From positions 4,477,488 to 4,541,487 of the forward strand of contig OZ004585.1 of NCBI GenBank assembly GCA_963924555.1: a DNA stretch of 64,000 nucleotides, written 5' to 3'. This DNA comes from Crambe crambe (Eukaryota; Porifera; Demospongiae; Poecilosclerida; Crambeidae). Position 1 is the stretch's first letter; every line of letters begins with the position of its first letter. The notes under the pieces were generated by a model. It was not told where the DNA came from, did no database searches, and saw only the letters and a program-made list of their open reading frames with translations. Shown piece after piece: positions 15,231 through 63,561 of the stretch. The translations under genes and the position numbers were made by a program.

Positions 15231-15389
15231 TCTTGCATTGGTGTCAGCCACACCACTGTCGGCAATACATTCGAGCCTTAGTACATTTGGAGCTTCCCTT
15301 GAAGGCAAGTAATAGTCCAGAGTAGGAATGCCTAGAATGACATGGATGGAGCACCAAACTAGAGTGCAGATGAACAAAGATGCCATCAT
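15231..15389 (-). pseudogene. Truncated receptor exon 1 (signal peptide and half of Ig domain 1) upstream of the RTK
   Basis: From an ATG at 15389 the sequence matches exon 1 of receptors A, D, E and F: an MMASLF-type signal peptide, then GIPTLDYYLPSREAPNVLRL and the first cysteine. The match stops abruptly after DTNAR at 15231. The second half of the exon, with the second cysteine and the usual splice donor, is missing, and the frame runs into a stop at 15195. The truncated exon lies 230 bp upstream of the RTK transmembrane exon. It may be the relic of an RTK ectodomain or an incomplete duplicate; I cannot tell which. Confidence 0.75.
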
Positions 15390-15455
15390 CAATAGAGAGA
15401 CGTGCATGCAGACTAGCAAATATTCTTTAATGGAGCGAGTATCATCAGTTTTCAT

Positions 15456-17287: not shown

Positions 17288-21250
<3,963 letters not shown>

Positions 21251-22641
21251 GAGATCTTTCTCATTTCAGATAGAGAGACGTGCATGCAGACTAGCATTGA
21301 CTTATTATCCTAAATGGAGCAATTACGTATAGCATCACATGATGCAATATGTCATATATGAATAGCGGAATGGTTTATATTGTATATTCAAAAAAGCTTA
21401 TCATATAGCTACATTACATGCATGCATGTGTTTTATACACACAAGCAGTCATTGTCAATATGTTAACAAGTTCTCTAAAATGGAACTGACCAGTTAAAAA
21501 AAAAAAATTTCTATGCAGTAAACAGTGAAGTATTTTAATGACAAAAAATAATGAGTAAACAATTAAAGTTGTTGTGCATAACTAGGGACACGAATCTCTA
21601 TGTCTTCATAGTTGTGATGGCAGACTTGATTTGCTGCTGCATAAGCAGGGCATTGTGTAAAGCTGTATGTGGTAGGAGTAGCTATTTCTTCATAATATGA
21701 CTGTGCTAGGTACAGATTCTACTTCAGTTTCAGGCACATTCAATTGAACATGAGCTTTTCTTGACTTTTCTCTAAAATAGTGTTCATAAATAATATTGAT
21801 TGAGCGAACTTTCCAATATAGTTATAATTATAGACAACTTACCCTAAATCTGTGCATTGCTTACGAGCGATTAAAATTCCGCCAGCTAAGAAAACAGTTA
21901 TTGTAGGAAGAGTACCAGCTACTCCAATCACAATGCCTGTATACGTACGTAATTCAATAAGATATGACTGAAACTTGGCTATCCTACCTTCTTCCAGACA
22001 AAATTCTCCACCCCCATCCACACACACGCACGCATGCACACACATATGCATATTGTCATTTAATGGGGAGTGCAGCAAGAAAACATTTGTGAAACCGTAA
22101 TACAGAAAAAAAAAATTCCATCATACTATACTATTTTAGATAATAGTGTCTGGTAAGTGGTCACTCACTTATTCCTGGATTATGTCTTAGCTATTACAGT
22201 AAAATTTTCTTGTTGAGAATGCACGGTAAATGTCGTTATTACTATTTCCCCTTATTGATGAAGTGACCAGATTTTGCTCCACAATGGTATAGTTTTCTAT
22301 TATAAGCTCACCAGTACTGATCTCCAAGGTGGAGTTAATCATGAAACTATTATTATTTTCTCTCTCAGTTCTATTAATAGATATCCCATTCTGTTCACAA
22401 CTATCAGGATCACAAGGTGATCCATTAAATATCCACCTCACACTGATATTACTTCCTCTAGCATTGCAATGAAAGATAGCTGTGTCACCGCACACTACTG
22501 TCTGGGATGAAGGGGAGACCATTATTTCACTTCTCTATAGAATAATAATTATTATTAGAACACAGCTCTGTACATTCACAATACAAAATCAGATCTTCTA
22601 AACCTCATAATGCATCACAGGGATACTAAGTGCCTAACAGT

Positions 22642-22676
22642 AGGTTTACTAAGTGCCCCGGGCACTTAGTAAACCT
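22642..22676. repeat. Perfect hairpin, 16-bp arms
   Basis: AGGTTTACTAAGTGCC (22642-22657), loop CCG, then the exact complement to 22676. It is in a receptor B intron. Confidence 0.9.
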
Positions 22677-22991
22677 GTGGTGGCAGCAATTAGAAATATT
22701 GCTATGAATCCATAGTAACCAACCAACCCCGCCTGGTGGGTGTGTGTTAGAAGACTTATCAAAAAATGGTGAAAGCTAGTTTCTCGCCTCCTGACACTAG
22801 TGAGTACCAACTAAAGCCTAGAAAAGAGTAACAAGGTACCGAAGGTAGCGTAGAAAGCTTAGTTAGTTCATATTTTCAAGCGTATAAGCTAGAAAGCCTA
22901 CCTTAGTTCTGGTGATTTTCAGCTGCTGGATTTTCCGTGCACGAAGCTTTCATGGCTGACTAGCTAACTTTAGCGATTCATTTGAACATAG

Positions 22992-24655
22992 ATATAAGAG
23001 GTTTTACGGGATTGGAAACGCCCAATGAACTGCACAACCGAGGCGCGTTGACAGATGCGCACGCGCATGCAGCATTAATTATATCATAGATACAGAGGTT
23101 TTCAGGTTGGTTGACCAGTAGAATTTGCGCATGTGCAAGATAAATTCAAGCGAGCAAGATATATTGTCATACAAATCCAATACTCTTAATTTTAGCGAGC
23201 ACCAATTTAATTATGCACCGTTGGCAAATTTTGTGTCAACCAACCTGAAAACCTCTGTATACTGCGGTTTTAGGAAATCTTGGAACACGAGAAAGTGCGC
23301 ATGCTCAAGCGCATGCTCAAGCACATTGGTAACTAAGGCTCCAGATCGTTTTTCAGCTTACAATGGCCAGTGAACCAGGTAGGAGAAGCCCTTATAGTAA
23401 GGATATTCGTTGGAGAATAACTAACACCCGTCCTAACTGAGCCATCATCGATTGTTTTGGTAACTATGCACAATTGCGCATGCGCTGACTACGGTTTAAT
23501 GTTTATTGCCGGCCGTCTTTGTTCCAAGATTCCCTAAAACCGCAGTAAGAGGTTTTACGGGATTGGAAACGCCCAATGAACTGCACAACCGTGGCGCGTT
23601 GACAGATGCGCACGCGCATGCAGCATTAATTATAGTAATCGTTGTGAAAAGAGATCAATATTCACTCCTTTCAAGGCAGTTAAAAGTGATATTCTGCCCC
23701 TACAGCTCACAGAATAGTACAAGTAAGCTAAGGGGAAGGTATTGAAGAAGTGAAGAGTCAGAGAGTTGAAGTTGGAGAGTCTGAGGAAGGAAGTTATTAA
23801 TTATTCATAACTTTTTTCCTTGTAATTATAACTATGAGTACCTATCATTGCTCATTATACATTAATTTTATGTGATTGATTTGAAAGAAAGGCCAGAATG
23901 ACTTTTGGTATTAAAATTAGACATAAATTCATTATTATCATAGCTAGATAATTTTGCCCCAAAGTTATCCGCCAGTTTCTGCTCAGTTCTCCCTCATCAA
24001 CATTATTGCAATACTTCCAGCTTTTGGCTGTTGGGTTTTGACACCATCCACCTCAAGAATTCGGCTCAGTCAGCTGTCCTGTGGACCCTATGGATGTTAG
24101 GGGGGAAATATAGTAAGCTTGTCATCTCCATAGGATGACTATTATATAGAAAACGAATGCACCAATTCCATTTACTGTTCTATCCTTTCCCTGAAATAAC
24201 TAATACAGTTTCAATATTGTTAATCTATTTCTTGGGAGAGGGATTACAGTTTTAACACCACTTGCAAATGCTAGAGACAATATATGTCAGCTAGTACAAA
24301 AACCAACATTACTATTCCATGTAGCTAAAGTTTACATGCCTTTTGATCAGAAAATGGGCAACAGCAATTGATTCCATCAAGCGTGAGAGGGATTACAGTC
24401 CCATTAACCACTACAGTAGTATTTGTAGGATTAAACTTGAAAATCTGAGCTGAAATTTATTTCATACAGTAAATCTATGCCCTAGTGTATTATAGTATCA
24501 TTGGCATAAGTCTTACCTCATGGATCTTGTCAGAACAGCAACTTTGACAAAAGTGCTATGTCATTCAGCTGTCAACGTGCCTCGGTTGTTAGTTGCTAAC
24601 GAGAGCACGTGATCCGTTTCCAAACCCGTAAACATCTTATATCTATGATTATATT
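22992..24655. mobile_element. Non-autonomous element(s) sharing the P-element terminus, with two nested MITEs
   Basis: Left-end sequence TTTTACGGGATTGGAAACGC occurs at about 23001 and again at about 23554. The right end, CGTTTCCAAACCCGTAAACATC, lies at about 24615-24640. CGGGATTGGAAAC is also the core of the terminal repeat of the P-type transposon at 37571-42223, which suggests mobilisation by that transposase. Between the two left ends lie two smaller inverted-repeat elements: about 23089-23261 (CAGAGGTTTTCAGGTTGGTTGA ends) and about 23262-23547 (ACTGCGGTTTTAGG ends). There is no ORF of note. Confidence 0.7.
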
Positions 24656-25665
24656 AATGGCCGTGAACGGAGATCAATATTCACTCCTTTCAAGGCAGTT
24701 AAAGTGATGTTCTGCCCCTACAGCTCACAGAATAGTACAAGTAAGCTAAGGGGAAGGTATTGAAGAAGTGAAGAGTCAGAGAGTTGAAGTTGGAGAGTCT
24801 GAGGAAGGAAGTTATTAATTATTCATAACTTTTTTCCTTGTAATTATAACTATGAGTACCTATCATTGCTCATTATACATTATTTTATGTTGAAAGAAAG
24901 GCCAGAATGACTTTTGGTATTAAAATTAGACATAAATTCATCATTATTATAGCTAGATAATTTTGCCCCAAAGTTATCTGCCAGTTTCTGCTCAGTTCTC
25001 CCTCATCAGCATTATTGCAATACTTCCAGCTTTTGGCTGTTGGATTTTGACACCATCCACCTCAAGAATTCGGCTCAGTCAGCTGTCCTGTGGACCCTAT
25101 GGATATTAGGGGGGAAATATAGTAAGCTTGCCATCTCCATAGGATGACTATTGTATAGAAAACGAATGCACCAATTCCATTTACTGTTCTATCCTTTCCT
25201 TGAAATAACTAATACAGTTGCAATATTGTTAATCAATTTCTTGGGAGAGGGATTACAGTTTTAACACCACTTGCAAATGCTAGAGACAATATATGTCAGC
25301 TAATACAAAAACTAACATTACTATTCCATGTAGCTAAAGTTTACATGCCTTTTGATCAGAAAATGGGCAACAGCAATTGATTCTATCAAGCGTGAGAGGG
25401 ATTATAGTCCCATTAACCACTACAGTAGTATTTGTAGGATTAAACTTGAAAATCTGAGCTAAAATTTATTTCATACAGTAAATCTATGCCCTAGTGTATT
25501 ATAGTATCATTGGCATAAGTCTTACCTCATGGATCTTGTCAGAACAGCAACTTTGACAAAAGTGCTATGTCATTCAGCTGTCAACGCGCCTCGGTTGTTA
25601 GTTGCTAACGAGAGCACGTGATCCGTTTCCAATCCCGTACAACCTCTTATATCTATGATTTGAAG
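24656..25665. mobile_element. Second tandem copy of the ~1-kb non-autonomous element, left end missing
   Basis: From GAGATCAATATTCACTCC (about 24671) onward it is nearly identical to 23648-24655, including the final GCCTCGGTTGTTAGTTGC and the CGTTTCCAATCCCGT end. The first ~90 bp of the left end is absent. The arrangement is a direct tandem duplication in the receptor B intron. Confidence 0.75.
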
Positions 25666-25726
25666 CCTTTCTAAGTTCTAAAACTATGTTGCTATGTTCT
25701 AAATAAGTTAGGAAACTTGACCAACG

Positions 25727-25829
25727 GGATCTAAGTTATTTAGAGACTCTCGGGCCCTTGGTAGCGCCCTCGCTGCGCTCGGGTCGCTACAGCCCAGGGC
25801 CCTCGGGTCTCTAAATAACTTAGATCCCT
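25727..25829. repeat. Long GC-rich hairpin MITE
   Basis: GGGATCTAAGTTATTTAGAG (from about 25727) pairs with its complement ending near 25829. The stem is interrupted only by small bulges, and the loop reads CCCTCGCTGCGCTCGGG. It is in the receptor B intron. Confidence 0.8.
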
Positions 25830-27227
25830 AGGTCTCGTTGTCTAACTATTATTAAGTATATAATAGTTCCACTAAAACTGTTAGAGCCGTACAAGCTACA
25901 TAAAAATTTAGCTACAATAGATGGTAGCTTTGGAACCAAATCTAGCTATATAGTTTGGAATAGATCTTTCTTGGAACTGTCATTAATTTTTATTCTCCAA
26001 TTTGGTGAATTGTGTTTTTTTTTCTCAGTCATGCACACACAACTTACTCAGCACACAGACTTTCATGAGAGGTCCTGTTATTACCCATGCACTGACAGAT
26101 CTGAGGAAGAGAACATTGTTGCATTCTTAACTTACATTGGAATGCCCTCTGATCAATAGAGTCTGATATAAGTACAGAAAGGGTTCTGTTATCTTGAGAG
26201 AGCACATATTCTCTTGTCTCTGTATCATTCATTAACTGCATTCGATGTGAATCCACAGTTACTTGTTCCCATTTTATAGTATAAAGAGTAGGCAGTGGTA
26301 TGGGACATGTCAGCATTGCATATGTATCAAGGAACACATCAGTCAAGATAGTTTCAGTAGACACATTTGGAACAGCTGCATTAGGATCAGAATTATTTCA
26401 GTCAAGTGCATGTCTGATTTATGCTTCAGGTTTAGCTATGTTGTAGCTACCTATAGCTAACCTATTCTTGCTTATACTTTATTGTCATATGCTGATTCTT
26501 AATTGTACATAGTTACGTATAGTTACAGTATTATGATGATCTTACGCAGAAACTGAATCCATTGTGATTATGCAAAATCTCTTCAGGTTCTAATTTACGT
26601 TAATCATGTTACTCAATCAGATCTGAATTTAAACAGTCTATTAAAGCTCTCATAGCTATAGGCACAGTTAGTAAACTGCTCCTTTACATGCATTCTAACT
26701 ACTTTTATGTTATACATGTAGCTAGCATAATTACAATACCTATATAAGTATTAGACAGTTCTTTGGGATCTTATTCATGTTTGTAAATCAGCTACGTTGC
26801 TCTATTGCATAACAATTCTTAACAGGTAGCTATACTGCTAAACTATAGGCAGTCTTTTTATGCATGCACTCGTATAGCCAAGTACTTATGCATTATAATT
26901 GTGTAGATATACGTACTACCACTAACCATAGAATGTAGCAAATTCAGAGTGTTCTCCTTGTATTTCACAACTAATATTGACTTCAAAATCTGCTGCAATG
27001 TCATATGTCAGATATTCTTCATCATCATCTGTAGGTTGCTCCATCAATAACACACAACTAGTGTTAATACCTGCATTGATGTCAGGCTCACCATTGTCAC
27101 CAACACAATCGAGCCTTAGTACATTTGGAGCTTCCCTTGAAGGCAAGTAATAGTCCAGAGTAGGAATGCCTAGAATGACATGGATAGAGCACCAAACTAG
27201 AGTGTAGATGAACAAAAATGCGATCAT

Positions 27228-47641: not shown

Positions 47642-47706
<65 letters not shown>

Positions 47707-48883
47707 CAATCAGCACTGCAACAAATGTGGCCAACCTGCCAAAGCTGATAACTAATACTTGATGAAGTGTTAACCACCAAGGCAAGAAGCTATGGTCATA
47801 ATTCTATAGTCAAACACCTGATGATGAAGTATTTGAGGAATGACCAGTGTGACCTGGAGCGGCTGAGGATGTCTCACTATCAGAAGCCGTTAGTTGGTGA
47901 GTAGCAGATGATTCGGTCGCCGCCAGCTGGCCTTGGTGACTGCATCTCCTCGCGCACTTCAGCGCGCACCAGCTCCAGAACTGGCTCAACTGCAGGGACG
48001 AAAGTGTGGTAGTCTATCATCTGCAATGGTAGGCTGGCTGTCCGCCGCCGGTTGATCCTCCACTGAGGCCCGAGTGGTCTGGAAATCAGCAGAAATCAGC
48101 AGCAGTCAGTAAGTTGATCCCTTGCTCCTGCTCCTTCAGCGTGACTGGCGCATGATCGTGTGCCCCGCATATACACATTAAACTCGCGAGGGAGTGGCCA
48201 ATAGTGCCATTGTTAACTTCATTTAAAGAGCCCATCCTTTCAAATTATATTTAATCATGTTACTCAATCAGCTATTTAAAATTCTAAACAATCTATTAAA
48301 GCTACTGCTAGACTAATAGCTATATAGGCACAGTTAGTAAACTGCTCCTTTACATGCTACTTTTACATGTAGCTAGCATAGTTACAATAGCTAAGCATTG
48401 AATATACGTAGCTCTTTGGGATATTCATGTTTGTAAATCAGCTACCTCTATGGCATCAGGTACGTAGCTATACTGCTAAACTATAATAGGCACAGGTAGT
48501 AAACTGCAACACTTGTTTTACATGTTCTTATAGCCAAGTACTTATGCATTATAAATTGTGTAGATATACTACCACTAACCATAGAATGTAGCAAATTCAG
48601 AGTGTTCTCCTTGTATTTCACAACTGACTTCAACATCAGCTGAAATGTTGTATGTCAGATAGTCTTCATTATCATCTGTAGGTTGCTCCATTAATAACAC
48701 ACCACTAGTGTTATAAAAATTGAATCTTGCATTGGTGTCAGGCACACCATTGTCACCAACACATTCAAGCCTTAGTACATTTGGAGCTTCCCTTGAAGGC
48801 AAGTAATAGTCCAGAGTAGGAATGCCTAGAATGACATGGATGGACCACCAAACTAGAGTGTAGATGAATAAAGATGCCATCAT
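30486..48883 (-). CDS. Ig-like receptor D, long multi-tyrosine tail, split by a 14.9-kb transposon nest
   Basis: Exons: 48580-48883, 32832-33161, 32256-32618, 30486-31207. Splice sites and phases agree, giving 1719 nt (about 572 aa). Exon 1 carries the signal peptide and Ig-like domain 1; exons 2 and 3 are C-W-C Ig domains. I found no separate stalk exon. The last exon encodes a transmembrane segment (GIGAGIGALLLTIISSITLC) and about 200 cytoplasmic residues. Tail motifs are HIYSTV, CLYAVV, KKPKIPPR (SH3 class II type PxxPxR), IDYGAL and EMYSK. Relative to receptor E it has lost two tyrosines (NYEEI to NRKEI, NYSVI to SSVI) and ends about 60 residues early. Intron 1 holds nested DIRS, Gypsy and P elements. 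The coding sequence is unbroken, so the gene could still function if the 15.4-kb intron is spliced. Confidence 0.8.
31208..32255 (-). other. Intron of receptor D
   Basis: I looked for a stalk exon like those of A, E and F and found none. Nothing else is supported here. Confidence 0.5.
33455..33630 (+). repeat. DIRS-associated direct repeat, left copy
   Basis: Begins TAATGCTGCAGGGGCCACTC. It contains two sub-copies of ACATAGAACATAGAGCT followed by GGGGGCCCCAGCAGGGTC, then a poly-C run (33598-33623). It matches 47133-47300 in the same orientation. Confidence 0.85.
33942..34484 (-). pseudogene. DIRS tyrosine recombinase, catalytic part
   Basis: A 180-aa open frame with LGFMRAGEF (first catalytic arginine), HSFRIGAAT (H-x-x-R box) and LGRWKSSAF...Y (tryptophan and tyrosine nucleophile region). 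These are the core residues of tyrosine recombinases used by DIRS elements instead of a DDE integrase. The frame is separated from its N-terminal part by a frameshift near 34610 and an in-frame stop near 34535. Confidence 0.85.
34603..35433 (-). pseudogene. DIRS RNase H and start of the tyrosine recombinase
   Basis: A 276-aa frame. It opens with an RNase H-like domain of the DIRS type (TSDASGSFGWG, AAKELV, FNSDNMAVVG, HVPGVDNTAADAISR), giving the D-E-D-D acid pattern. It continues into the SAM-like N-terminal DNA-binding part of the recombinase (SRSTRAVYQSGWRQYIHFC, TIRSYLSALQ) and then ends by a frameshift. Confidence 0.8.
35621..36626 (-). pseudogene. DIRS reverse transcriptase, frameshifted
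   Basis: RT blocks are spread over three frames: YAAYIREG (to 36351), then GLVPKPHQLNKFRL (about 36150), then KLDIKDAYHIIPV, LPFGLRSAPKIF and the catalytic YLDDFLFLD (36073-35621). Frameshifts near 36350, 36135 and 35640 break the ORF. The RT domain itself is recognisable and places the element with DIRS-order retrotransposons. Confidence 0.85.
37060..37532 (-). pseudogene. DIRS gag, C-terminal part with zinc knuckles (cut by the Gypsy insertion)
   Basis: Contains CTLCRQVDHTRAQC and a Cys/His-rich segment (FCVSWNKGAC...H-C-P-V-C-...-H-K-A-K-D-C) typical of DIRS gag proteins. Parts are in two overlapping frames. The coding sequence is cut at the Gypsy target site (37533-37537) and its N-terminal portion continues at 46679. 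Confidence 0.75.
37533..37537. other. Gypsy target-site duplication, left copy (CTGGG)
   Basis: CTGGG directly precedes the 5' LTR start TGTAATG. The same five bases follow the 3' LTR at 46674-46678. Confidence 0.9.
38045..40997 (+). CDS. P-element-type transposase, nine exons, apparently intact (about 836 aa)
   Basis: Exons: 38045-38558, 38611-38734, 38792-38933, 38992-39720, 39781-39972, 40023-40175, 40227-40415, 40473-40611, 40669-40997. All are GT-AG and in phase (2511 nt). Residues about 190-210 hold a C-x3-C...C-x2-C cluster. Then come a helix-turn-helix-like LPSQRTLRDYT, LLDEMYIRED (probable catalytic Asp), ATFDGASINRR, FSDPPHLIKTTRN, and near the C-terminus QDPLENFFGCQRQRGG, all typical of P-element/THAP9-like transposases. 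I see no N-terminal THAP zinc finger, which might be replaced or lie in an unfound 5' exon. It is expected to cut and paste elements with the ACGGGATTGGAAAC termini. Confidence 0.88.
41030..42041 (-). CDS. Second gene of the P-type transposon, function unknown (two exons)
   Basis: Exons 41499-42041 region (donor GTAAGAC at 41491-41497, exon end 41498) and 41030-41442 join in phase into about 318 aa. The protein is charged, with NALRYMAGYVVRSLRKK, EEWTDAIDRGGLIHVNDMLY and a lysine-rich C-terminus. I do not recognise a named domain. The phrase resembles C-terminal segments seen in some P/THAP9-like transposon proteins, which is only an impression. It lies wholly inside the terminal repeats, is transcribed toward the transposase gene and has no lesions, so it is probably an accessory transposition protein. 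Confidence 0.7.
42390..42575 (+). pseudogene. Gypsy gag, N-terminal piece
   Basis: Starts at ATG 42390, about 22 bases after the LTR (MAEGTAKPG...), with a capsid-like W-x3-K-RR-F start. The reading frame is lost near 42560-42590 and gag continues in another frame, so a frameshift separates it from the rest. Confidence 0.75.
42568..44571 (+). pseudogene. Gypsy gag C-terminus, protease and reverse transcriptase
   Basis: A 667-aa open frame. It has capsid residues, then zinc knuckles (CCNCGLAWPHKGSPC and CKACGKPNHFARVC), aspartic protease active site MIDTGAST, and RT blocks LDLRSGYHQIPL, LNFGTNSASEIFQ and NISDDVIIFG, with DD as catalytic acids. It ends at a TAG (44569-44571) exactly where related elements usually have a tryptophan just before the RNase H region. 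This is probably a nonsense mutation, because similarity continues in frame for about 25 codons beyond. Confidence 0.88.
44621..45667 (+). pseudogene. Gypsy RNase H and N-terminal half of integrase
   Basis: RNase H: ELTTDASPVGLSAILSQ, TEKEALAIVWAVEHF, LYTDCKPVQMIL. Next is an integrase zinc-binding region (H...HEGHQG-xn-C-x2-C: NCVACQ) and the first catalytic aspartate in NVDFCGPF. The frame is offset from the upstream RT frame (shift near 44630) and fails near 45640, where similarity moves to another frame. Confidence 0.85.
45645..46469 (+). pseudogene. Gypsy integrase C-terminal half
   Basis: FATHGIPTILKSDNGPPF carries the second catalytic Asp and PQANGEAESF the Glu of the DDE triad. A GPY/F-like C-terminal domain follows (DTVLVRQKKKNKF...YKVVEIKGTMLT). 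It ends at a stop 30 bp before the 3' LTR. The join with the preceding frame is a small indel around 45640. Confidence 0.85.
46500..46673 (+). repeat. Gypsy 3' LTR (174 bp)
   Basis: TGTAATGTTCATACTTAC at the start, ACACTGTA at the end. It matches the split 5' LTR apart from a short indel around 42275 and 46570. It contains repeated CACAATCA(T) blocks. Confidence 0.92.
46674..46678. other. Gypsy target-site duplication, right copy (CTGGG)
   Basis: Identical to 37533-37537. DIRS gag resumes immediately outside. Confidence 0.9.
46679..47123 (-). pseudogene. DIRS gag, N-terminal part
   Basis: The frame from ATG 47123 is Ser/Thr/Pro-rich (MSSLSVQSPFVSWAG...), then helical (SGQFTEMKELLADNISLL, ITRDQLAYARLLIKEAQ). 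It runs into the Gypsy LTR at 46673. Removing one copy of the 5-bp duplication keeps the frame into the part ending at 37532, so the insertion itself was clean. Confidence 0.75.
47133..47300 (+). repeat. DIRS-associated direct repeat, right copy
   Basis: Matches 33455-33630 with few differences and is followed by a poly-G tract (about 47305-47324). It lies just upstream (in element sense) of gag. Confidence 0.85.
47645..47705. repeat. (CA)n microsatellite
   Basis: CA run of about 60 bp in the 5' region of the DIRS element. Confidence 0.95.
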
Positions 48884-49569: not shown

Positions 49570-51170
49570 ATAAAGGAAAAAGCATTTCGTGAAATGAAAA
49601 AAGATGTAGGAATGACCACTGCTCAAAAAAGTAAGGAAACAAGAAGGATGGAAATGGGATCAATCTTTGTTCTGTATATCCAGCCAACAATCCCTACATA
49701 TATTTCAGGTAGCTTCAGATTATAGTGTAGTAATGTACGTAGCTATATGTAGGGATTGTTGGCTGGATATACAGAACAAAGATTGATCCCATTTCCATCC
49801 TTCTTGTTTCCTTACTTTTTTGAGCAGTGGTCATCCCTACATCTTTTTTCATTTCACGAAATGCTTTTTCCCTTACTTGTTCCTGGTCTTTTTTCCTCTC
49901 TTTTATGGTTTTAGCTATGTATAGAGTTCATTCTTCTATGTGTATGCAGGGACAGATGAAAGAAGAATAGTTCTCCAATAGTTCTCCAGCATACCAGCCC
50001 AATCACTATACTTGGAGGTCGAAGGAAGATGCTGAAATAGAGTCTATTGTCGTGAATCTAAATCCCCGAGTCGATACAGTAGTTATCTGGAGGTAGCTAG
50101 CTAGCTAGAGACAGCTGAGTAATTATTATAACACTCTCTAATTTCGAATAATTGGATATTCAAAATTTCATTATAAAGCCCGCAAGGGATACATACAGAG
50201 AGAACATAATGTGAAATAACCAGGCTTATGATGTGACATGATACAATAACTTGCTATAGAGTTGTGTGCAATATTGTTCTAAGTGATAGTGCCTTTTCAA
50301 AGGTTTCCTCGCAAGGAGTTGTGAGAAGGTGCAGCAGGTGCTTGAGTTCGCAGCCGAGGTGAACCTTGGTGATGTGGTCCGCAGGAAGGTTGCTCCTGCC
50401 GTACTTGTGCCCGCACACAGGACAGGCAAAGTCATCTGTGAACACTGGGATGGTGATAACACGAAGGACTGTGGCAATTGCCCTGGCGCCTCGAATACCT
50501 TGCTCCCTGGCCTCATCCCATAGTCTCATCCAACTAATATCACGGGAGAGAGCAGCAAGGTTCTCACGTGAAGACACTAGGGACCAAATGTAGTCACGAT
50601 CAGCAGCCTGGAGTTTGTCTTTGACTGCTCTCAGGGTGAGATGATTTTCAAAATTCTCTTCTTGCTGCAAAATAACTTCTGTCAGATTGGTCTTATAAAC
50701 CTGCTCCAGGAACTTGCACTGCTGAATCACTAGTGGCTCAGAATCTTTCTCCCTCAGACAGTTGAATACCTCCACACTGATGGACACCTTTTTGGGGTGT
50801 AGGAGACGCCAGAGGAAACTGATCTTGCGGTGAAGGATACGAAGTCTCATAGTAGGCCACTGGAGTGCAACTAGTGGGATGAGATTGGAGTGATGTTTTG
50901 GAAGGTTTAGGATTTTCTTGCCGAGTTCACCTTGGAACTGATCCAGCGATGAGATCATTGGCTCTGTTATCAAATACATGCGCATGCGTATTATAGAAAA
51001 GATGGCTTCCTAATTGAATTAGTCAAGTGCTGTGCTCCGTAGTGTCTCCTTTTTCATCGAGGATCAACGAGTAGAAAAGATCGTAGTTCGTGGATTTATC
51101 CAGAAATCATAGCTGTAGCTTGAGTGGTTCGAGAGATATGGTTGTCTAAGAAGAAGAAGAAGAAGAATAG
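49570..51170 (-). repeat. Dispersed repeat 'F1', copy 3 (inverted), with a LINE inserted
   Basis: The hairpin part (about 49572-49878) is near-identical to 4118-4398. The outer part (50985-51170) matches 12365-12430 and 12690-12790 on the other strand. The LINE at about 50160-50975 interrupts the TTTGATATCC of the other copies. Confidence 0.8.
50254..50985 (-). pseudogene. Non-LTR retrotransposon C-terminal fragment
   Basis: A 243-aa open frame resembling the segment after RT in LINE ORF2 proteins: LDQFQGELGKKILNLPKHHS, ALQWPTMRLRI, KISFLWRLL, then a zinc-finger-like C-x2-C-x11-H-x4-H (CPVCGH...DHITKVH). The 5' part with endonuclease and RT is absent, as in ordinary 5'-truncated LINE copies. 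The first few codons come from repeat F1, so the frame's start is not a natural one. The short TTTGA(A)T at both edges is a candidate target duplication. Confidence 0.7.
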
Positions 51171-51788: not shown

Positions 51789-51792
<4 letters not shown>

Positions 51793-52848: not shown

Positions 52849-55496
52849 CTAGTCCGCAGGGTACATCATTGACAAATCAAATGGGGGAATTTCAGGAGCT
52901 TCTTCTTCTTGCTCAAAAGTGATTTTTTCTGTAGAGTCTGGAATATAATCTGTGACTTGACATTTTGGCTTTGTTTTTTTATCAATGACTGAATAGTTGG
53001 GATCACATGTGTCTGATACTGGATCATTCAGTTTTAACTGAGGCTTTTTCTTCACTACATTGCTGTACATTTCATTGCCAGGGTCATTCAATTCAAGTGC
53101 GTCTAACTCTCCGTAATCACTACTTCTGGGTGGTACCTTTGGCTTCTTCTTATCCACAACGGCATATATTAAGCAGTTATCACGGGTGGATTTCATGGTG
53201 GTTTTTTTCACAGCAGTTTTGGTGGATTTTTTATTTACTGCAGAATAAATATGGGAAGGATCCCATGTTTCAGAACCCCTTTGCATTTGAGTTTCCTTCT
53301 GCACTGAAACATCACATGGTGTAAGGTCTATTTCTTCATAATTGCTTGCAGCATTTGTGAATGTCTTCTTCATCACTGTAGCAGAGTGGGAGCCATCCCA
53401 ATAATCAGATGCATACGATTTCTTCTTTCGCTTAACTTCATTATGTCCTGGAGGAAATTTATTAAAACATTGTGCATCTTCTAATGATGTTAATGCACTA
53501 TAATTTGGATCATTGTCAGTAATCTCAAATTCTTGGTTAGATAAATCTTCACGAGTTTCTCTGTTCTCCAATTCTGTTGCAGGAAGATTTTCAGTTACAT
53601 TCGGTGTTGATGTTATGCATACTCCAGTCTCGTTCTTGATGTGAGTTCGAATGAGATATAGTCTACAGAATGTTATTGAACTGATAATACTAATAATTGT
53701 TAGTAATAAAAAAGCTCCAATTCCAACTCCAACTCCAATTTGTAGTATTGATGAGTCTAGAAAAGTAATAATTGATATAATTATAGTTATCATGTAAACA
53801 GGTACAAATACTTAGCTCTGTTACTCTTTGAATTGGGGAACACTAATTTTATTAGCTAAAACCATAATTATTCAGAGAGAGACTTAAGTATGAATAAATA
53901 CTATCCACACATCTATTTAACCTTTAGCCATGTATTAGAACCTTTACCAACCTTTACCACATGCACGTGCACATGCAAGCCATATCAGTACCAGTGAACT
54001 ATTAGCTAAAACGATACAGTAAATAAACTAAAGGTCATTAACTAAAGTTGATACAGAAAGTAAAGGTCTTTTAAAAGTAAACAAACAAGTGAAGGGAAAA
54101 ACATTGTGCTAATAATAAGGCCATGTAGGGTTAGTCTGTATTGCAGTTTCTGTGAACAAACATCAAAATTATGCTGCCTACATCACTGCCTAAACCAAGC
54201 ACAACTGACATGAGCAATTAAAGCAGCTTGGTGGGAGGTAGTGATGTAGGGATTATTATTGAAGGCAGCATAATTTTGACTGTACAGACTAACCCTTTTA
54301 TTTAACATAATTTTTTTTTTCCTTCATTTGTTTAGCCTTTGGCCAACCTTTACCAATTAATGTTTACACTAGTCACCACTAATTGATCATGCACACTGTA
54401 AAACCACCAGTCACTTCACTGGCGTAGGAACAGGGGGGCCACAGGGGCCAGGGCCCCCCTATTATTTTCAGACAGGGGGCAGGGCCCCCCTTATTATTGA
54501 TTGCATAATTGCTATAGTTACTATACTACACTGCATAATACTTCACAGCTGTAATAAAAGTGAAATCTACAAACAGGAAGTAGATAAACTTATACTTGAC
54601 ATTTCCAGTCACTTCAGCCACAGCAGAACACTCTTTTTCTTCCCTTCATCAAATGAAAACTTAGCTATTTAAGAAGCACTATGACTGAATGTCAATTGAA
54701 TAACTATATAGCTAGTTATACATGAAGAATTAGCCAAAGAATAAATTACTTTGGAGTTTGATTTTTTTATGACAGTGTAGAGTGATTTAGACTATTTGCA
54801 TGGTACTCACTATTATGTTGATTTAAGAACCAGTCAATAGTGCCCCCCCCAAGTAAAATAAGCATGATCTTGACTATTACTTAGGTGGCCCCCCTATTCA
54901 AAACCATCTTCCTACGCCACTGTACTTATATCTGTATAAATACTCAGTCTCTAACTGGTTCACAAATAATTATCTTCAAACTACTACAGGGATGGCCCAG
55001 CAATGGAGTTTCTCAGAATTAAGTATGATAGCTGCAACAGTGTCAGATAAATTTGTGAGCAGTAAACACTTTCATATTTACTTTCACAGTGTATGAATGA
55101 CGTAATACTGTTTTCTAACTCCGTGTTATCCTATCATCTAAATTTTATGCACTCATAATATTTATATGCTGTATTATCAGGGATGGCACAGCCGATCCAA
55201 ACATGGTGGAGTTAGAAAAATGATTTAGTTTAGTGTGCTCCCAAGAGAGCGCAAAGCGCAGAAATAATCAATATAATGATGAGCTTCAAGTGTCTTCATG
55301 CGATCATTGCTTTCTTGCAATATCTCTTTCTTTATGTAGGTACCGTATGTAAATCATCATAGCAGTATAAGAAAGTGGCCCCCAGCACCCCCATGTATGC
55401 CACCCCTGATTATAGTCAGAAAATGCATAGCTAGTCATCTGTATCGTCAGCTGACATTAATTTAATCCAGCCTGTCTCTTAGCAGGGTTCATCTAA

Positions 55497-55527
<31 letters not shown>

Positions 55528-58500
55528 TCCCCCCAAACTAACCTAACTTCCCCCCCCCCCCCTTCGTTGACCACAGGTTGTTACATGTAGTCACCAAAGG
55601 GAATAATTAAGGACCAATTTGAGATACTTCAGAATAGTAAGCATTTTTGGCTTCGCACTTTGCACAGGAGCTAGGCCTCCTCTCACTGTGGCCTATGGCC
55701 ATCTGATTGGTGAGCTTCCTCCCCAAGGTGAAATTCCTAGATGAAACCCTGCAAGTTAGTTGGCTAAAGCAATTGACTTCATAAAGACATACATACATAG
55801 ACTGAGAAATGTGAGTTCCAGCACACAGTAATTCCATGCAAAATATGTAGTTTAAATTTTTCTATAGCTACTTATAATGGGATCAGTCTGTCCATCTATC
55901 CAATAAGCTTGTCCTTCAAGTATGAGAGGTCAATTGAAATGTTATTTTTGGAACTCAACCTTGGTATTAACAAATTCGACGGCTGCCTAACCACTCTAAC
56001 TTGCTACTGGTTAGAAAAAAAGCCACTAAGTGTGGTAACTAGCTAGCTACACTATTATGGACCAACAGTCGGTTTGTATAATAATAATGTGATTAGAATC
56101 TTATATCTATGCATTCAAAATTGACTACTTAGGTAGGTATTAATTTGATTATACAGCAGTGTTATTATTGAATTCACCCAGACTCTTAATTTTCATGTGA
56201 GCATGTGGTTACTTGTAATTGTGAAATTTTTACTTATCATTTTGGTCATGTTCAATAGCGAAAATTAATCACATGAAATAATACCTTGTAAAAAATAGTG
56301 TGAAAGCTAATTACAAGTAAGTAAGCTGTAACAATGGAAATAAATTAACATGAAACACGAATAATATCTAACAAAAATTTCCCTATTTCTGGTAGTTCAG
56401 ATGAAATACCCATGGGTTCTTTAGCTTAACAAGAATGGTGGCTGGAAGGGGGGGGGGGACTAATGAATCTAGCCTTTTCTCCAATCTCACTGAGCCTTAG
56501 TATTGCTATAGTAGTATACTGAGACCATGGTCCTTCACGCTAGAGTGGCATAGGAATATGTTTTACTATTAGGGGGGCACCAATTTTTGGGGGGTACAGC
56601 TGACTGTGTGGGCACAACATGGAGAAGGGATGTGCATAAATAGCTACATACCACAACCAGCTATGGTATTATGGGGGGGGGGGGGGGCTCCAGCCCTCAG
56701 AACCCTCCATTCCTATACCACTGCACTATAGGCAAATTGCTAGCTGTATGACTCACTCTTAACTACATTTAGTGAATTACATGCATCTTACCAATTACAG
56801 TACTATTTTCTTGTTGAGGTTCATCAGTCAATATCACTGTTGTACTATTTTCTTCTAAATTCAATAATAGTAGCATTCATGATAGCTATTCGAGGTTTTT
56901 AAAATTCTGCCACTCACCAAAATTTATTACTTGAAGATATGCAGACAATGTGAAGGTAATGTTAATATAATCACTTCTTAGTGATGAAGAGACCAGATTT
57001 TGTTCCACAATGCACTGAATTGTGTAGTTTTCCGTTATAAGCTCACCTGTACTGATCTCCAAGGTGGAGTTAATCATGAAACTATTATTATTCATTTTCT
57101 CAGTTCTAATAATAGATATCCCATTCTGTTCACAGCTTTCAAGACCACAAGGTGATTCATTAAATATCCACCTCACACTGATGTTACTTCCTCTAGCATT
57201 GCAATGAAAGATAGCTGTGTCACCATTTGCTACTGTCTGGGATGAAGGGGAGACCATTATTTCACTTCTCTCTAGAATATAATCAGTGTACAAAAAGTTC
57301 CACTAAAGTTGTCCTTACAAACTACATACATGTACGTAAATGTAGTTACAATGAATCCAATTTTCAAAACAACGGTAGCTTTGGAACCACTTTTTTAGAA
57401 CTTTCATTGTATGCTTCGATTTGGTACCAATATCTCAAAACTTGTGTTGCAAGAAATTATATTTTTTTCTCAGTCATACATATAACTAAATACACACTTA
57501 TCAACTTACCTAGCACACGGACCTTCATGAGAGGTCCTGTCACTTCCCACTGACAGTTCTCAGGAAGAGAGCATAGTTGCATTCTTAACTTACACTGGAA
57601 TTCCCTCTGATCAATAGAGTCTAATATGAGTACAGAAAGGGTTCCGTTATCTTGAGAGAGCACGTATTCTCTTGACTCTGTATCATTCATTAACTGCATT
57701 CGATGTGAATCCACAGTTACTTGTTCCCATATTATAGTATAAAGAGTAGGCAGTGGTATGGGGCATGTCAGCATTGCATATGTATCAAGGAATACATCAG
57801 TCAAGATAGTTTCATTAGACACACTTGGAACAGCTGCATTAAGATAAGAAAACAATAATTATTTGCTCAGTCATGTGCATGTGTCTAATTATTTAGCTAT
57901 GCTGTACCATGCTTCATGTAATGGTTATAACATGCCTATATTATAGCTAATTTAAAGTCAATATGTGCATATGAGGATAATGTGATAGCTAGTGCACTCG
58001 GTTACATAATGCACTTGTGCACTTGCCTTTGGCTTGTGCATTATGTAACCTCATGCACTATCATATCATCCGAGTATGCCTCATTAAAAGACGCAAAGTT
58101 CACTAGGCTTGTCATAGCTAAGTGTTTTATTGCTGGTCACATGTCTTGGGTCTAATCAATTTTCAGTTAGCTAGTGAAATGCCAAAGTTTATAAAAGAAG
58201 ACATTCAGTTGAGGCTGGAAGGTCATAGTAAGTGGATCTGCCTATGTATCTTCACCACAAGTTCCTCAAGTGTGCAATAAACGTTAAAATGTATTCAGAG
58301 GATCTGTTGGTCACAATTATGTCATGTACTATGCTGACTCTTGGTGCATGGTTACATAGATACCTATTGTAAGTGACATGCTAGCAATTGCTCTTTTAAT
58401 ATTATGTTACATACGTAGAAACTGAATCCTTTGAGATCATGCAAGATCTCTCTGGGTTCTAATTCATGTTACTCAATCAGCTATGAATTTTCAACAGGTT

Positions 58501-58931
58501 ATTAAAGCTACTGCTAAACTAATAGCTGTAGGCAGGCACAGTTAGTAGCTAAACTGCAACACTCCTTTACATGGACTCATTAATAGCTACATATAGTGTA
58601 GATAATATTACTATCACTAACCATAGAACATGACAGATTCAGAGTGTTCTCCTTGTATTTCACAACGAATATTAACTTCAAAATAAGCTGCAATGTCGTA
58701 TGTCAGATAGTCTTCATTATCATCTGTAGGTTGCTCCATCAATAACACACCACTAGCATTATAAAACTTGAATCTTGCATTGGTGTCTTCCACACCACTG
58801 TCACTAATACATTGGAGCCTTAGTACATTTGGAGCTTCCCTTGAAGGCAAGTAATGGTCCAGAGTAGGAATGCCTAGAATGACATGGATGGAGCACCAAA
58901 CTAGAGTGTAGATGAACAAAGATGCCATCAT
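52849..58931 (-). CDS. Ig-like receptor E, long multi-tyrosine tail (652 aa, five exons)
   Basis: Exons: 58622-58931, 57510-57833, 56918-57271, 56792-56854, 52849-53756. All are GT-AG and in phase (1959 nt). Order: signal peptide; three Ig-like domains (LRLQC/IRCEI; LTCPIP/IWEQV/FQCKL; FHCNAR/VRWIF/IQCIV); a 21-residue stalk; transmembrane (IGVGVGIGAFLLLTIISIISS); and about 270 cytoplasmic residues. Tail motifs include SNYEEI (SxYxxI), LIYAVV (exact ITIM pattern), NYSAL, IYSAV, MYSNVV, NYSVI and DYIPDS, with KKPKVPPR as a class II SH3-type site. A membrane receptor able to bind several SH2/SH3 adaptors after tyrosine phosphorylation is inferred. The ectodomain is very close to receptors A, D and F. 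No lesions are seen. Confidence 0.86.
54125..54300. mobile_element. Palindromic MITE, copy 2
   Basis: Related to 8905-9120: CAGTTTCTGTGAACAAACATCAAAATTATGCTGCC arm, central CAGTGATGTAGGGATTATTATTGAAGGCAGCATAATTTTGA. The right arm is shorter than in copy 1. Confidence 0.7.
54417..54923. mobile_element. MITE with CACTGGCGTAGGAA termini
   Basis: CACTGGCGTAGGAA at the left and TTCCTACGCCACTG at the right (13 of 14 inverted). The element is rich in GGGGCC near its left end. A similar pair, GTGGCATAGGAAT...ATTCCTATACCACT, bounds about 56549-56717 in the same intron. Confidence 0.65.
57975..58075. repeat. Hairpin in receptor E intron 1, shared with F
   Basis: GATAGCTAGTGCACTCGGTTACATAATGCAC pairs with GTGCATTATGTAACCTCATGCACTATC. 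The same hairpin, with a shortened right arm, is at about 62607-62685 in receptor F at the equivalent intron position, so it predates the E/F duplication. Confidence 0.75.
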
Positions 58932-60675
58932 CAGATAGAGAGACGTGCATGCAGACTATATAGTTAATGGAGCGAGTATGATCAGTTTTTATTATGCAAT
59001 ACCATATATGATATGAATAGCTGAAAACAGCTTATCATTATACACTGTGTCTATACACACAAGTGCTCACTCACAATAACAAGTTTTCTAAACTGGAACT
59101 TACCATAAATTCTCTGTACAGTAAAGATTGATCAATGACAAAAAATAGTGAGTATACGAAATATTATCTGGATCTATAGCTAAGAGATGGTACAACTGAT
59201 GGTGGTACAGAGAGTGCAAGAGAGCAATGAGAGAGGGTCTATAGTTTTGGGAAGTATCTTGTATAGTATGAATGCTCAACAATCACTAGCAGCAGTGTAT
59301 GATGATTAGCCTTATATACAGCATGCACCTGAATCATATAGCTACGTATGCTAGCAAATCCCTGCAGAACTGTGAAGTTCAATTGTACCCTCTATATTGA
59401 GATTTCTTGGAGATGGATCATGAGAATTGTCATCATAAACTTAAATCATTCTTATGGTCAGGATTTTATTATACTAGCTATCCAATCAGTATCTTTTATT
59501 TAGTTAGACAACATGTGTGCATTCTATAGAAAAGCATAATTGCTTTTGTCATATTTTATCATGTTATGGATAGTATGATAACATGTATGCATGACTGGAC
59601 TTATCCCTCAAGTTGAATCATGCTTTGTAAGAGTACATACGTAGCTACAGAGTAGCAATGATAATGCTCATGAAATGCATAAGGAGATAAGGCATGTGGT
59701 AAAGCCACTCCATTAGCAGAATATCGATTAAACTTATGATCTCCTACGTATATGTAGCTACATATTTCTAAAGATGTGTCAGTAATATAATCTCTGCTAC
59801 AGCTTACTCAGGATCCATGCTTTGCTTGCAATGTGAGCAATAATCGATCATGCCAATCAGGAACTCCCTAAGGCCTTCAGTCCTTCACCCATTCTACCCA
59901 CACATTCATGCATAAAAAATACATGCTGGTCTCACTGAGAGTGAAGGTAGAAATGAAAGATAGAGCTTGATAACAGAATGTTTGTCAAGCTGCTTAATCT
60001 AAAAAGGGTAATAATGTACGTAGCTGATTCTGAACATAGTGAAACTGCTGTGTCTTCTGAGCTCAAAGTTGGAGGATGTACGTACTAATTTACTACAGTA
60101 GAAATAGTGTTCAGAAATCTCAGTAGTTTCAAAATTATCCTGCGTTGTTTCATGGTTTACATGTATCAATATCTCTAGTGCAACCATTAATTCTCTGTAT
60201 AGACAAGAACTAAGCAATATGAATGAGTGCAAGCATATTGGCTGTTGATTCAACTGATGGTGAATTTTTTGATGGGAGTGTCGGTAAACTAGCACAGAAG
60301 AATTATTAATAATTAAATTAATGAGGGAGGAGGACAGTCTCTTTTTTTAATTTTTATTTCTTTCTCTCCATGCATCACATCCCTGACTACTCTTAAACTA
60401 GCTAGGGAATGTTATTGAATTGGGACTTAACAATCAAAAACATTTAAAAATGAACTTGATGCAAAAACAATAGCAAAAAAACAAACTAAAAAACTGGTTA
60501 TTCATGTTGTAGTAAGTACGTATAGTCACTTGTTATGCAAACAATTGAAGCTGTTGTGCATAACTAGCAATCTCCTACTCTTTACTTCATGCACATAATA
60601 AGGAGCTATAATAATTATAGTAAACAATAATTATGGTTGATCATACAGTGAATGATATTCTCAACATTTGCTATT
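58932..60675. other. Intergenic segment between receptors F and E
   Basis: Collinear with 15456-17287. No gene found. Confidence 0.65.
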
Positions 60676-63561
60676 TCAATTTTTTTTGGTAATCACTCCA
60701 TAAGCAGAACATTGTTGGATCTTAATATCACCCTCATGTGAAGTAGGGACATCTAAATCACAAATCTTCACGTCTTCATAGTTGTGATGGCAGGAATCTG
60801 TGATTTTATTTGCTGCTGCATAAGCAGGGCATTGTGTAATGCTGTATGAGGTAGAAGGTGTAGCAATTTCTTCATATATGACTGTGCTAGGTACAGATTC
60901 TACTTCAGTTTCAGATGCATTCAATTGAACCTGAACTTTCCTTGATCTTTCTCTAAAATAGTGTTCATAAAAATCAATAATAACATTGATTGAGTGAACT
61001 CTCTAATATAGTTGTATAGACAGCTTACCCTAAATCCGTGCATTGCTTACGAGTGATTAAAATTCCACCAGTTAATGAAACGGTTATTATAAGAAGAGTA
61101 CCAGCTACTCCAATCACAATGCCTGTGTGTATTATTTAATGTGGACAAAATATGGTCAATAAATTATGATTGAAACTTGGCAATTCTACCCACTTCCAGA
61201 CAAAAATATCTCCACCCCCTCCACACACACACACATGTATGCATGCACATATACATGTGTTTATATAATGGAGAGTGCATGCAGCAAGGAAACATTTGCG
61301 CAACCATAATAGGGGTACAGAAAAGTGTACACAATGAAATGATATTATTCCATGATACTATGCTATTTAGTAATAGTCTGGTAAGTGGTCACTCACATTT
61401 TCCTGAATAATTATGTCTTACCTATTACAATAAAACTTTCTTGTTGAGAATCCACAGTAAGTATCACTGTTGTACCATTTTCTTTTTGAGGATTCACCAT
61501 CGAAGTCACCATTTTACCATTTTCTCCTAGTCGAAGATGGATTAATGGCATTCATGATAGTTAATTAAAAATTCTACCACTCACCAAAATTTATTACTTG
61601 AAGATATGCAGACAATGTGAAGGTAATGTTAATATAATCACTTCTTAGTGATGAAGAGATCAGATTTTGCTCCACAATGCACTGAATTGTGTAGTTTTCC
61701 ATTATAAGCTCACCAGTACTGATCTCCAAGGTGGAGTTAATCATGAAACTATTATTATTTTCTCTCTCAATTCTATTAATAGATATCCCATTCTGTTCAC
61801 AGCTATCAGGACCACAAGGTGATCCATTAAATATCCACCTCACACTGATGTTACTTCCTCTAGCATTGCAATGAAAGGTGGCTGTGTCACCATTTGCTAC
61901 TGTCTGGGATGAAGGGGAGACCATTATTTCACTTCTCTCTAGAATGAAAGTGTATAAAAAGTTCCACTAAAGTTATCTTTACAAACTACATAAAAATGTA
62001 GCTACAACCAATCAATTTTCAAAACAATGGTAGCTTTAGAGCCACTTTTTTGGAACTCTCATTGTATGCTTTAATTCGGTACCAATACCTCAAAACTTGT
62101 GTAATTTTTTATGTGAAATTATATTTTTTTCTCAGTCATACATAAATATACTTATCAACCTACCTAGCACACGGACCTTCATGAGAGGTCCTGTCACTTC
62201 CCACTGACAGTTCTCAGGAAGAGAGCATCGTTGCATTCTTAACTTACACTGGAATGCCCTCTGATCAATAGAGTCTGATATAAGTACAGAAAGGGTTCTG
62301 TTATCTTGAGAGAGCACATATTCTCTTGACTCTGTATCATTCATTAACTGCATATGATGTGAATCCACAGTTACTTGTTCCCATATTATAGTATAAAGAG
62401 TAGGCAGTGGTATGGGACATGTCAGCATTGCATATGTATCAAGGAATACATCAGTCAAGATAGTTTCATTAGACACATTTGGAACAGCTGCATTAAGATA
62501 AGAAAACAATAATTAATTATTATGCTTTAGATTTAGCTATGCTGTACCATGCTTCATGTAATGGTTATAGCATGCCTATAATAGATAATTTTAAGTCACA
62601 TGAGGATAATGTGATAGCTAGTGCACTCGGTTACATAATGCACTTGCCTTTGGCTAGTGCCTCATGCACTATCACATCATCCGAGTGTGCCTCATTAAAG
62701 ACACAAAGTTCACTAGGCTTGTCATAGCTAAGTGTTTTATTGCTGGTCACATGTCTTGGGTCTAATCAAATTTCAGTTAGCTAGTGAAATGCCAAAGTTT
62801 ATAAAAGAAGACATTCAGTTTTGTAAGCACTTGGGACTGAGGCTGGAAGGTCATAGTAAGTGGATCTGCCTATGTATCTTCACCACAAGTTCCTCAAGTG
62901 TGCAATAAATGTTAAAATGTATTCAGAGGATCTGTTGGTCACAATTATGTTATGTACTATGCTGACTCTTGGTACATGGTTACATAGGTACCTATTGTAA
63001 GTGACATGCTAGCAATTGCTCTTTTAATATTATGTTACGTAGAAACTGAATCCTTTGAGATCATGCAAGATCTCTTTGGGTTCTAATTCACTTTAATCAT
63101 GTTACTCAATCAGCTATGAATTTTCAACAAGTTATTAAAGCTACTGCTAAACTAATAGCTGTAGGCAGGCACAGTTAGTAGCTAAACTGCAACACTCCTT
63201 TACATGGACTCATTAATAGCTACATATTATGTAGATAATATTACTATCACTAACCATAGAACATGACAGATTCAGAGTGTTCTCCTTGTATTTCACAACG
63301 AATATTAACTTCAAAATAAGCTGCAATGTCGTATGTTAGATAGTCTTCATTAACATCTGTAGGTTGCTCCATCAATAACTCATCACTAGTATTATAAAAC
63401 TTGAATCTTGCATTGGTGTCAGCCACACCACTGTCGGCAACACATTCAAGCCTTAGTACATTTGGAGCTTCCCTTGAAGGCAAGTAATAGTCCAGAGTAG
63501 GAATGCCTTGAATGACATGGATGGAGCACCAAACTAGAGTGTAGATGAACAAAGATGCCAT
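60676..63561 (-). CDS. Ig-like receptor F, short ITIM-like tail (486 aa, six exons)
   Basis: Exons: 63255-63561, 62164-62487, 61585-61938, 61422-61526, 61029-61122, 60676-60952. All are in phase (1461 nt). Domains are as in receptor A: signal peptide and Ig-like domain 1, two C-W-C Ig domains, stalk, transmembrane (GIVIGVAGTLL...TRKQC) and a 91-residue tail with VIYEEI (ITIM pattern), NYEDV and SAYGVI (SxYxxI). The stalk exon is 105 nt rather than 63 because an ENG-x-x-V-type segment is repeated. Its first donor is at the same position as in all paralogues. The gene appears intact and is the nearest relative of receptor E in the ectodomain but of receptor A in the tail. Confidence 0.86.
62607..62685. 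repeat. Hairpin in receptor F intron 1
   Basis: The counterpart of 57975-58075 with about 10 bp missing from the right arm. Confidence 0.7.

Follow-up and report, generated by a model that had tools for sequence, protein, structure and literature searches.

How one set of near-identical receptor ectodomains comes to be joined to different signalling outputs, and what such an arrangement might serve in a sponge, is the question raised by the stretch of DNA analysed here (64,000 bases, referred to as the window; contig C8, positions 4,477,488–4,541,487). The window was most likely derived from chromosome 5 of the demosponge Crambe crambe, which bears out the sponge origin suggested in a preliminary description of the same DNA, and contigs C1, C6, C8, C9, C13, C14, C15, C18 and C20 of the assembly searched (143.14 Mb in 119 contigs) agree with chromosomes 1, 4, 5, 6, 10, 11, 12, 15 and 17 of odCraCram1.1, respectively (PMC12166358). 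The sequence shows a single ectodomain module that in each gene is joined either to a receptor tyrosine kinase (RTK), to a long docking tail or to a short tail resembling an immunoreceptor tyrosine-based inhibitory motif (ITIM). We put at roughly one in two the probability that these genes form a complex in which a shared module feeds three outputs and signalling at contact decides between fusion and rejection.

The preliminary description had reported tandem minus-strand genes with common ectodomain exons, and all of these elements were present where it placed them (Table 1). Five genes (A, B, D, E and F) follow one exon plan: exon 1 codes for a signal peptide and an N-terminal module (module 1), exons 2 and 3 for the immunoglobulin (Ig)-like domains Ig2 and Ig3, and a transmembrane segment and tail follow. 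Spliced models with GT/AG junctions in phase were open for A (459 codons with stop), D (572), E (631) and F (452). The proposed division into short tails (A, F and the decayed B) and long tails (D and E) was also upheld. The tail of D is of E type but is interrupted by a frameshift, its remnant at 30475–30422 lying out of frame; B is a pseudogene with the ends of exons 2 and 3 and the tail out of frame. The transmembrane exon is separate from the short tail in A and F, and a single exon holds transmembrane segment and long tail in E. Each gene had one tail type, and no remnant of a second tail was found inside any window gene. Judged by its motifs, the long output consists of many tyrosine motifs with a proline-rich SH3-type motif (YSAL, YEEI, YAVV, YGEL, YSVI and KKKPKVPPR in E), and the short output of invariant tyrosines including V/I-x-Y-E-E-I; VIYEEI and SAYGVI of F fit the pattern [SILV]xYxx[ILV], as does VIYEEI only in A. 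Despite the different tails, nucleotide identity of the ectodomains between classes was 91.4–99.7% in the five short-versus-long pairs compared.

Exchange of outer domains and extent of the family

Trees were built from exons 1–3 of 27 close genes (14 short-tailed, 13 long-tailed) and from a second set of 23, with four genes of ambiguous tail dropped. In the joined-ectodomain tree of 27 genes the tail label changed 9 times against a mean of 9.3 after shuffling (261 of 500 shuffles were as low), which is the level of chance, and at least five changes were forced by well-supported branches. Single exons were more informative. Exon 1 required 10 changes in 27 genes (157/200 shuffles as low) and 10 in 23 genes (198/200), exon 2 required 8 (53/200) and 7 (70/200), and exon 3 just 5 (0/200) and 4 (0/200); tail class was thus unlinked to exon 1, barely linked to exon 2 and clearly linked to exon 3. 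Linkage to the tail therefore decays with distance from the membrane, the pattern that recombination or gene conversion would leave if breakpoints fell along the gene, and this statement of a gradient is stronger than that of mixing across the whole ectodomain. For instance, the short-tailed A of the window pairs with a long-tailed gene at 4180 kb, and a short-tailed gene at 4200 kb is 99.7, 98.8 and 99.1% identical to a long-tailed gene at 4190 kb over the three exons. Short–long sister pairs had support of 97–100 in the SH-aLRT (Shimodaira–Hasegawa-like approximate likelihood ratio test) and 95.4–99.7% identity per exon. On this sequence evidence, the outer domains are exchanged between short-tailed and long-tailed receptors.

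The search of the genome for further copies found many, in a megabase-scale family on C8, and the window shows a corner of a receptor complex of that size. Matches numbered 103 for exon 1, 106 for exon 2, 94 for exon 3, 32 for the long tail and 68 for the short tail, with 199 for the kinase query, part of them listed; the listings are lower bounds, and some exons and tails counted are fragmentary or contain a stop. When the 3.9–6.6 Mb region of C8 was sorted, ectodomain exon sets preceded a kinase, long-tail or short-tail output, and among the matches listed all three ectodomain exons lay upstream in 22 of 26 kinase, 16 of 23 long-tail and 20 of 30 short-tail rows. The kinase-less long and short forms carry the same ectodomain type as each other and as the RTK class; the idea of kinase, adaptor-docking and inhibitory-type versions of one module thus held up, and more strongly across the genome than in the window. 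Close copies of the window genes occupy C8 4.147–4.326 and 4.49–4.55 Mb, with others on the plus strand at 4.73 Mb and, lacking exon 1, at 4.94 Mb. Divergent tails (42–50%) at 4.83–4.87 Mb indicate that the tail classes are older than the recent expansion; some of them are probably hybrids with a long-type start and a short-type end. Probable hybrids, with a short-type tail within 0.8 kb of a long-tail start, were located in the divergent part of the family at C8:4833214/4832481, 4871470/4870740 and 5875801/5876565. Smaller groups were found with the exon 1–3 queries on C18, C20, C15, C1, C13, C10 and C5. C20:3625517-3626506 carries a long-tail exon (63%) that is not part of the chromosome 5 complex; it is more than 1.3 Mb distant from the ectodomain matches of C20.

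An Ig-like ectodomain on an RTK was present in the family, as the 22 kinase rows above show, and one full gene with Ig3 (Ig3-RTK; C8:4034993-4026478), read exon by exon, had open exons 1, 2 and 3, transmembrane exon (FYIKKKRTR) and kinase exons. The other 24 first-kinase-exon rows listed on C8 were 67–85% identical to the window RTK query. Ig3-RTKs lie mostly outside the close-copy blocks, and their ectodomains are more divergent than those of the short- and long-tailed genes, exon 1 being at 40–61% in all but one of the 22 complete kinase rows listed. The exception, a set at C8:6557537-6563513 (6.56 Mb) with a partial exon 1 84% identical to the short/long type, hints that kinases, too, could take up the common outer domain. 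The transmembrane exon of the window RTK resembles, by eye, that of the Ig3-RTK at C8:4030363-4030091. For the window kinase the best PDB match bears the name EGFR (9p9u, E 1.5e-88); Mer, ROS, AXL, RON and Met came next, and on account of this spread we call the kinase receptor-type and assign no finer class. A truncated first exon adjoins this RTK, as had been described, but it is of the short/long, non-RTK type: exon and upstream DNA match the short- and long-tailed genes, similarity stops at 15231, and no Ig2 or Ig3 exon was found between it and the RTK. Given this, the window RTK has lost its recognition domains, and the truncated exon is best read as a stray fragment. A dense array of other tyrosine kinases, with the kinase domain in one long open frame as opposed to the multi-exon kinases of the receptor family, was noted at C16:5.73-6.05 Mb.

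The ectodomain had been described as three Ig-like domains, a description that suits exon 3, which alone of the three passed the Pfam Ig cut-off (Ig_3), and less firmly exon 2, with Ig_3 matches in 9/25 members, Ig_2 in 3/25 and a profile match to a basigin Ig domain in PDB (E 0.0011). It does not extend to exon 1, for which 0/26 members had an Ig-family match and no PDB sequence match was found either. Of the structure predictions that had been called for, the AlphaFold2 model of exon 1 (26 sequences) folded into a seven-strand beta-sandwich (mean predicted local distance difference test score, pLDDT, 85), but that of exon 2 was unusable (mean pLDDT 39). In Foldseek the exon 1 model matched nothing at E 0.001 or better; weak matches to CD3-gamma, FN3, cytokine-receptor and alpha-2-macroglobulin type sandwiches gave no clear winner. 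Based on these models, the ectodomain should read as one Ig/FN3-like sandwich (Ig versus FN3 type unsettled) and two Ig domains.

Tails, partners and variants on other contigs

Twenty-two short tails, chosen for being mostly intact (2 from the window and 20 others, from C8, C6, C9 and C14), were aligned. The first tyrosine and that of H-x-Y-E were invariant in 22/22, and the ITIM consensus [SILV]xYxx[ILV] was present at the first tyrosine in 19/22. C6 holds 26 of the 68 short-tail matches, others being on C9, C14, C18 and C66 besides C8. A receptor array at C6:7.74-7.97 Mb ends in the same ITIM-type tail as A and F, and at the one locus examined by eye (C6:7796000-7801000) Ig-like and FN3-like segments lay upstream of it. 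Since an unrelated receptor of Ig/FN3-like type bears this tail, the short tail seems, from sequence comparison, to be a portable module of different receptor families.

Potential partners were identifiable in the same genome. A compact gene at C18:6538800-6541600, some 27 kb from the contig end, encodes two SH2 domains and a phosphatase; its SH2 exon was nearest to SHP-2 (E 1e-57), and its phosphatase exon (HCSAGIGRTG) best matched LAR-type phosphatases, then SHP-2. Three SH2 and kinase pairs in a Src-like layout are on C15. An inhibitory role is the likelier, albeit not the only, reading of the short tail. Large arrays of protein tyrosine phosphatase exons were also seen at C12:0.07-0.38 and 2.5-3.2 Mb, C9:2.6-3.4 Mb and C13:3.6-3.9 Mb, possibly a counterpart expansion to the receptor arrays. 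Weak SH2 matches recur every 2058 bases at C14:3697948-3702252, in one open frame of 9513 residues that represents a giant repetitive protein.

Second-haplotype contigs of Crambe crambe have been deposited, and an alternate-haplotype assembly is named as GCA_963924525.1 (PMC12166358). A search of a large protein database with exon 1 returned 25 proteins, all without names, which were compared with about 55 of the 103 genome places, including the 27 closest full-length ones and without a baseline of ordinary-gene heterozygosity. All ten on a contig of 2,911,941 bases were 100% identical to assembly copies, although for one of them the match covered 66 of 80 residues. None of the 14 on contigs of 1,041,771, 956,155 and 326,168 bases was identical to the assembly copies compared, the nearest being 87.5–97.2% identical, and one protein on a 1,088-base contig was a distant relative (57%). 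The long tail gave a similar division of 21 proteins: 11 on contigs of 2,911,941, 507,445 and 824,687 bases matched the assembly at 99.6–100% over the DNA compared, and the other 10, on the 1,041,771-, 956,155- and 326,168-base contigs, had best matches of 73.5–95.3%, P0010 excepted. The contigs with other variants are probably the deposited second haplotype, differing in gene content.

Weighing the readings

Copy number, domain exchange, contig variants and the SHP-2-like phosphatase together make it plausible that this is a receptor complex for self/non-self recognition or immunity. The outer domains of short- and long-tailed receptors are kept near-identical by duplication and by exchange among the genes, and the pool of recognition surfaces is thereby common to both outputs. 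The receptors may act at cell–cell contact, possibly through binding each other; RTK members or Src-like kinases would phosphorylate short and long tails, the short tail would recruit the SHP-2-like phosphatase, and the balance of kinase and docking against short-tail partners would decide between fusion or adhesion and rejection or attack. A change of tail by recombination could then reverse the meaning of the same contact. In its most specific form, which we regard as possible and hold tentatively, this would be a sponge allorecognition complex in which recombination would join a haplotype-variable domain pool to outputs of opposite sense, namely a docking scaffold, a tail that recruits SHP-2 and a class of kinases whose own ectodomains are more divergent, making the same contact a go or a stop signal, with an inhibitory tail portable to the C6 array.

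Several observations weigh against allorecognition. YEEI is the classical Src SH2 ligand, and as such could make the short tail activating. The spacing of the immunoreceptor tyrosine-based activation motif (ITAM; two YxxL/I at 6–12 residues) was not found in the long tail of E, where YSAL, YEEI, YGEL and YSVI (at 414, 468, 543 and 583) are at least 40 residues apart. Mixing was incomplete, since the joined ectodomain of the 23 clear genes leaned towards clustering by tail (6 changes against a mean of 7.9; 23/200 as low). The second-haplotype origin of the variant contigs is itself inferred: over 199 residues P0010 matches an assembly copy at 100% before it differs, two contigs are given for each of P0001 and P0027, so that some sequence is shared between contigs, and the protein database was clustered at 90%, which hides similar alleles. 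Finally, exon-wide positive selection was not seen, the ratio of nonsynonymous to synonymous divergence (dN/dS; Nei–Gojobori ratios of means among paralogues, exon-wide) being below 1 in every exon class tested.

The selection data bear on a somewhat doubtful alternative, an ordinary adhesion or co-receptor family that holds sponge cells together and tunes RTK signalling with no discrimination of individuals, its copy number arising from tandem duplication and gene conversion. Mean dN/dS was 0.49, 0.87 and 0.51 for exons 1, 2 and 3 of close copies and 0.51 for each of the short and long tails; RTK exons gave 0.27, 0.46 and 0.34, and the RTK kinase exon was lowest at 0.20. Such constraint would suit adhesion, as would the homogenised ectodomains and the Ig-bearing molecule of Geodia, described as an adhesion molecule in the available part of one source (PMC11999971); one region in which 58 tail and kinase rows have complete ectodomain sets, and likewise the variants on other contigs, seem beyond housekeeping need. 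Untested windows with pN above pS (nonsynonymous and synonymous differences per site) were noted in exon 2, codons 37–56 and 85–104 among them, in the signal-peptide part of exon 1 and in parts of exon 3, and the most variable exon 1 codons include 25, 41–42, 47, 60–61, 70, 88 and 98–100.

Unlikely, in our view, are innate immune receptors for microbes or symbionts, in which an arms-race array with inhibitory members would serve defence and not allorecognition. The size and tandem layout of the array, its broken copies and transposons, the ITIM-type and multi-tyrosine outputs and the same short tail on the second array on C6 would be in keeping with such a role, against which stands that no pathogen-binding domain was recognised in the exons scanned. 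Neutral birth and death, with tail mixing a by-product of gene conversion and most copies redundant or dead, we consider very improbable: 10 of 30 short and 7 of 23 long rows lacked a full ectodomain set (under the chaining rule, which splits some by an intervening tail row) and B and D are damaged, but most exon matches have no internal stop, the kinase exon is under constraint, and the tail tyrosines show no variation among the 22 tails aligned, which come from different families.

Comparison with known systems places the candidate allorecognition complex more precisely. In vertebrate KIR, SIRP and LILR receptors, gene conversion maintains near-identical ectodomains on proteins whose signalling tails differ. 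The short- and long-tailed Crambe receptors are alike in their near-identical ectodomains and unlike in that no ITAM was found in the E tail and the third output is a built-in tyrosine kinase. Closer in kind is the trio of the sponge Geodia cydonium, GCRTK and the kinase-less GSAM-long and GSAM-short, which share related Ig-like ectodomains with two Ig-like domains, for which polymorphism has been reported; Crambe, too, combines an RTK with kinase-less long and short receptors on related Ig-like ectodomains. The portions of the literature available describe a Geodia RTK with an Ig-like ectodomain (PMC12018476) and an Ig adhesion molecule named GSMS (PMC11999971). Compared by description, Crambe differs from GCRTK/GSAM in several respects: it has three modules, of which the first is not recognisable as Ig from its sequence, its genes form a complex on a chromosome, its short tail is of ITIM type, and its outer domains are exchanged between outputs.

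We know of no RTK members in the allorecognition complex of Hydractinia (Alr family), from which the Crambe complex, known from genes alone, differs by its RTK class when Alr is compared by description. As far as the available parts of two sources go, it is similar in its clustered Ig-type receptors, tyrosine-motif tails and sessile animal (PMC12065747, PMC11999971), the Alr family counting 41 members (PMC11999971, in part). In the accessible text of a 2025 review, Hydractinia Alr and Botryllus FcoR receptors bear ITIM or related motifs, and tails at Botryllus fuhc (fester/FcoR) differ (ITIM, hemITAM, core tyrosine motif) with a switchable choice of motif (PMC12065747). Botryllus switches tails by alternative splicing, unlike the separate one-tail genes of the Crambe window. 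The V-type Ig, sushi and C2 Ig domains described for Botryllus differ from the Crambe ectodomain (PMC12065747). The same text calls the mechanisms of allorecognition a 'complete mystery' and reports no conservation of candidate allorecognition proteins among sponges, cnidarians and ascidians (PMC12065747). A term search of the main text of an Amphimedon graft study found neither 'immunoglobulin' nor 'tyrosine kinase'. What differs from these systems is the three-output chromosomal complex, the swapping and the portable tail. The complex has been mapped, its outputs are defined, an SHP-2-like partner exists and haplotypes apparently differ; as the species also has a chromosome assembly, it is a concrete and testable allorecognition candidate, and on its gene content a strong candidate for sponge self/non-self discrimination. 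If this reading is true, sponges, too, use the stop/go logic known from paired immune receptors, extended by an RTK as a third output.

Features of the window

Table 1. Features in the window (positions counted from its first base)
Feature	Position	Strand	Parts	Basis or remark
RTK without Ig2/Ig3	5481..15139	-	transmembrane exon ~15000-14786; kinase within frames 14282-14133, 11982-11839, 11600-11358, 11362-11201 (HRDLAARN); further kinase frames 8042-7863 (DFG), 7662-7447, 5666-5481	open frames, kinase matches
Truncated exon 1, short/long type	15231-15389	-		repeat family; 91-97% to other window copies
Gene A, short ITIM-type tail	17288..21247	-	21247-20941, 20411-20088, 19860-19495, 17727-17625, 17564-17288	spliced model open
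Gene B, decayed, short tail	21593..27224	-	exon 1 ~27224-26928, exon 2 26376-26092, exon 3 22534-22244, transmembrane 21937-21845, broken tail 21770-21593	tblastn pieces, tail split over two frames
Gene D, long tail, C-terminus lost to frameshift	30486..48880	-	48880-48580, 33161-32832, 32618-32256, 31207-30486	spliced model
Transposable elements in first intron (~15 kb) of D	35621..46469	both		Pfam on single open reading frames
Reverse transcriptase fragment	35621-36220	-		D intron 1
P-element-like transposase frame	38992-39777	+		D intron 1
Gypsy-type gag-protease/reverse transcriptase/RNaseH/integrase frames	42565-46469	+		D intron 1
Gene E, long tail	52849..58928	-	58928-58622, 57833-57510, 57271-56918, 53756-52849 (transmembrane + long tail)	spliced model open, 631 codons with stop
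Gene F, short ITIM-type tail	60676..63561	-	63561-63255 (signal peptide + module 1), 62487-62164 (Ig2), 61938-61585 (Ig3), 61122-61029 (transmembrane), 60952-60676 (tail, VIYEEI + SAYGVI)	spliced model open, all GT/AG in phase

Between exon 1 of D and gene E, a minus-strand open frame of 251 codons (50257-51009) had no Pfam match. Long open frames at 1–3571, which are probably not genes, fall in a minisatellite of 9-base units, some 370 in number, arranged in three arrays with inverted repeats between them.

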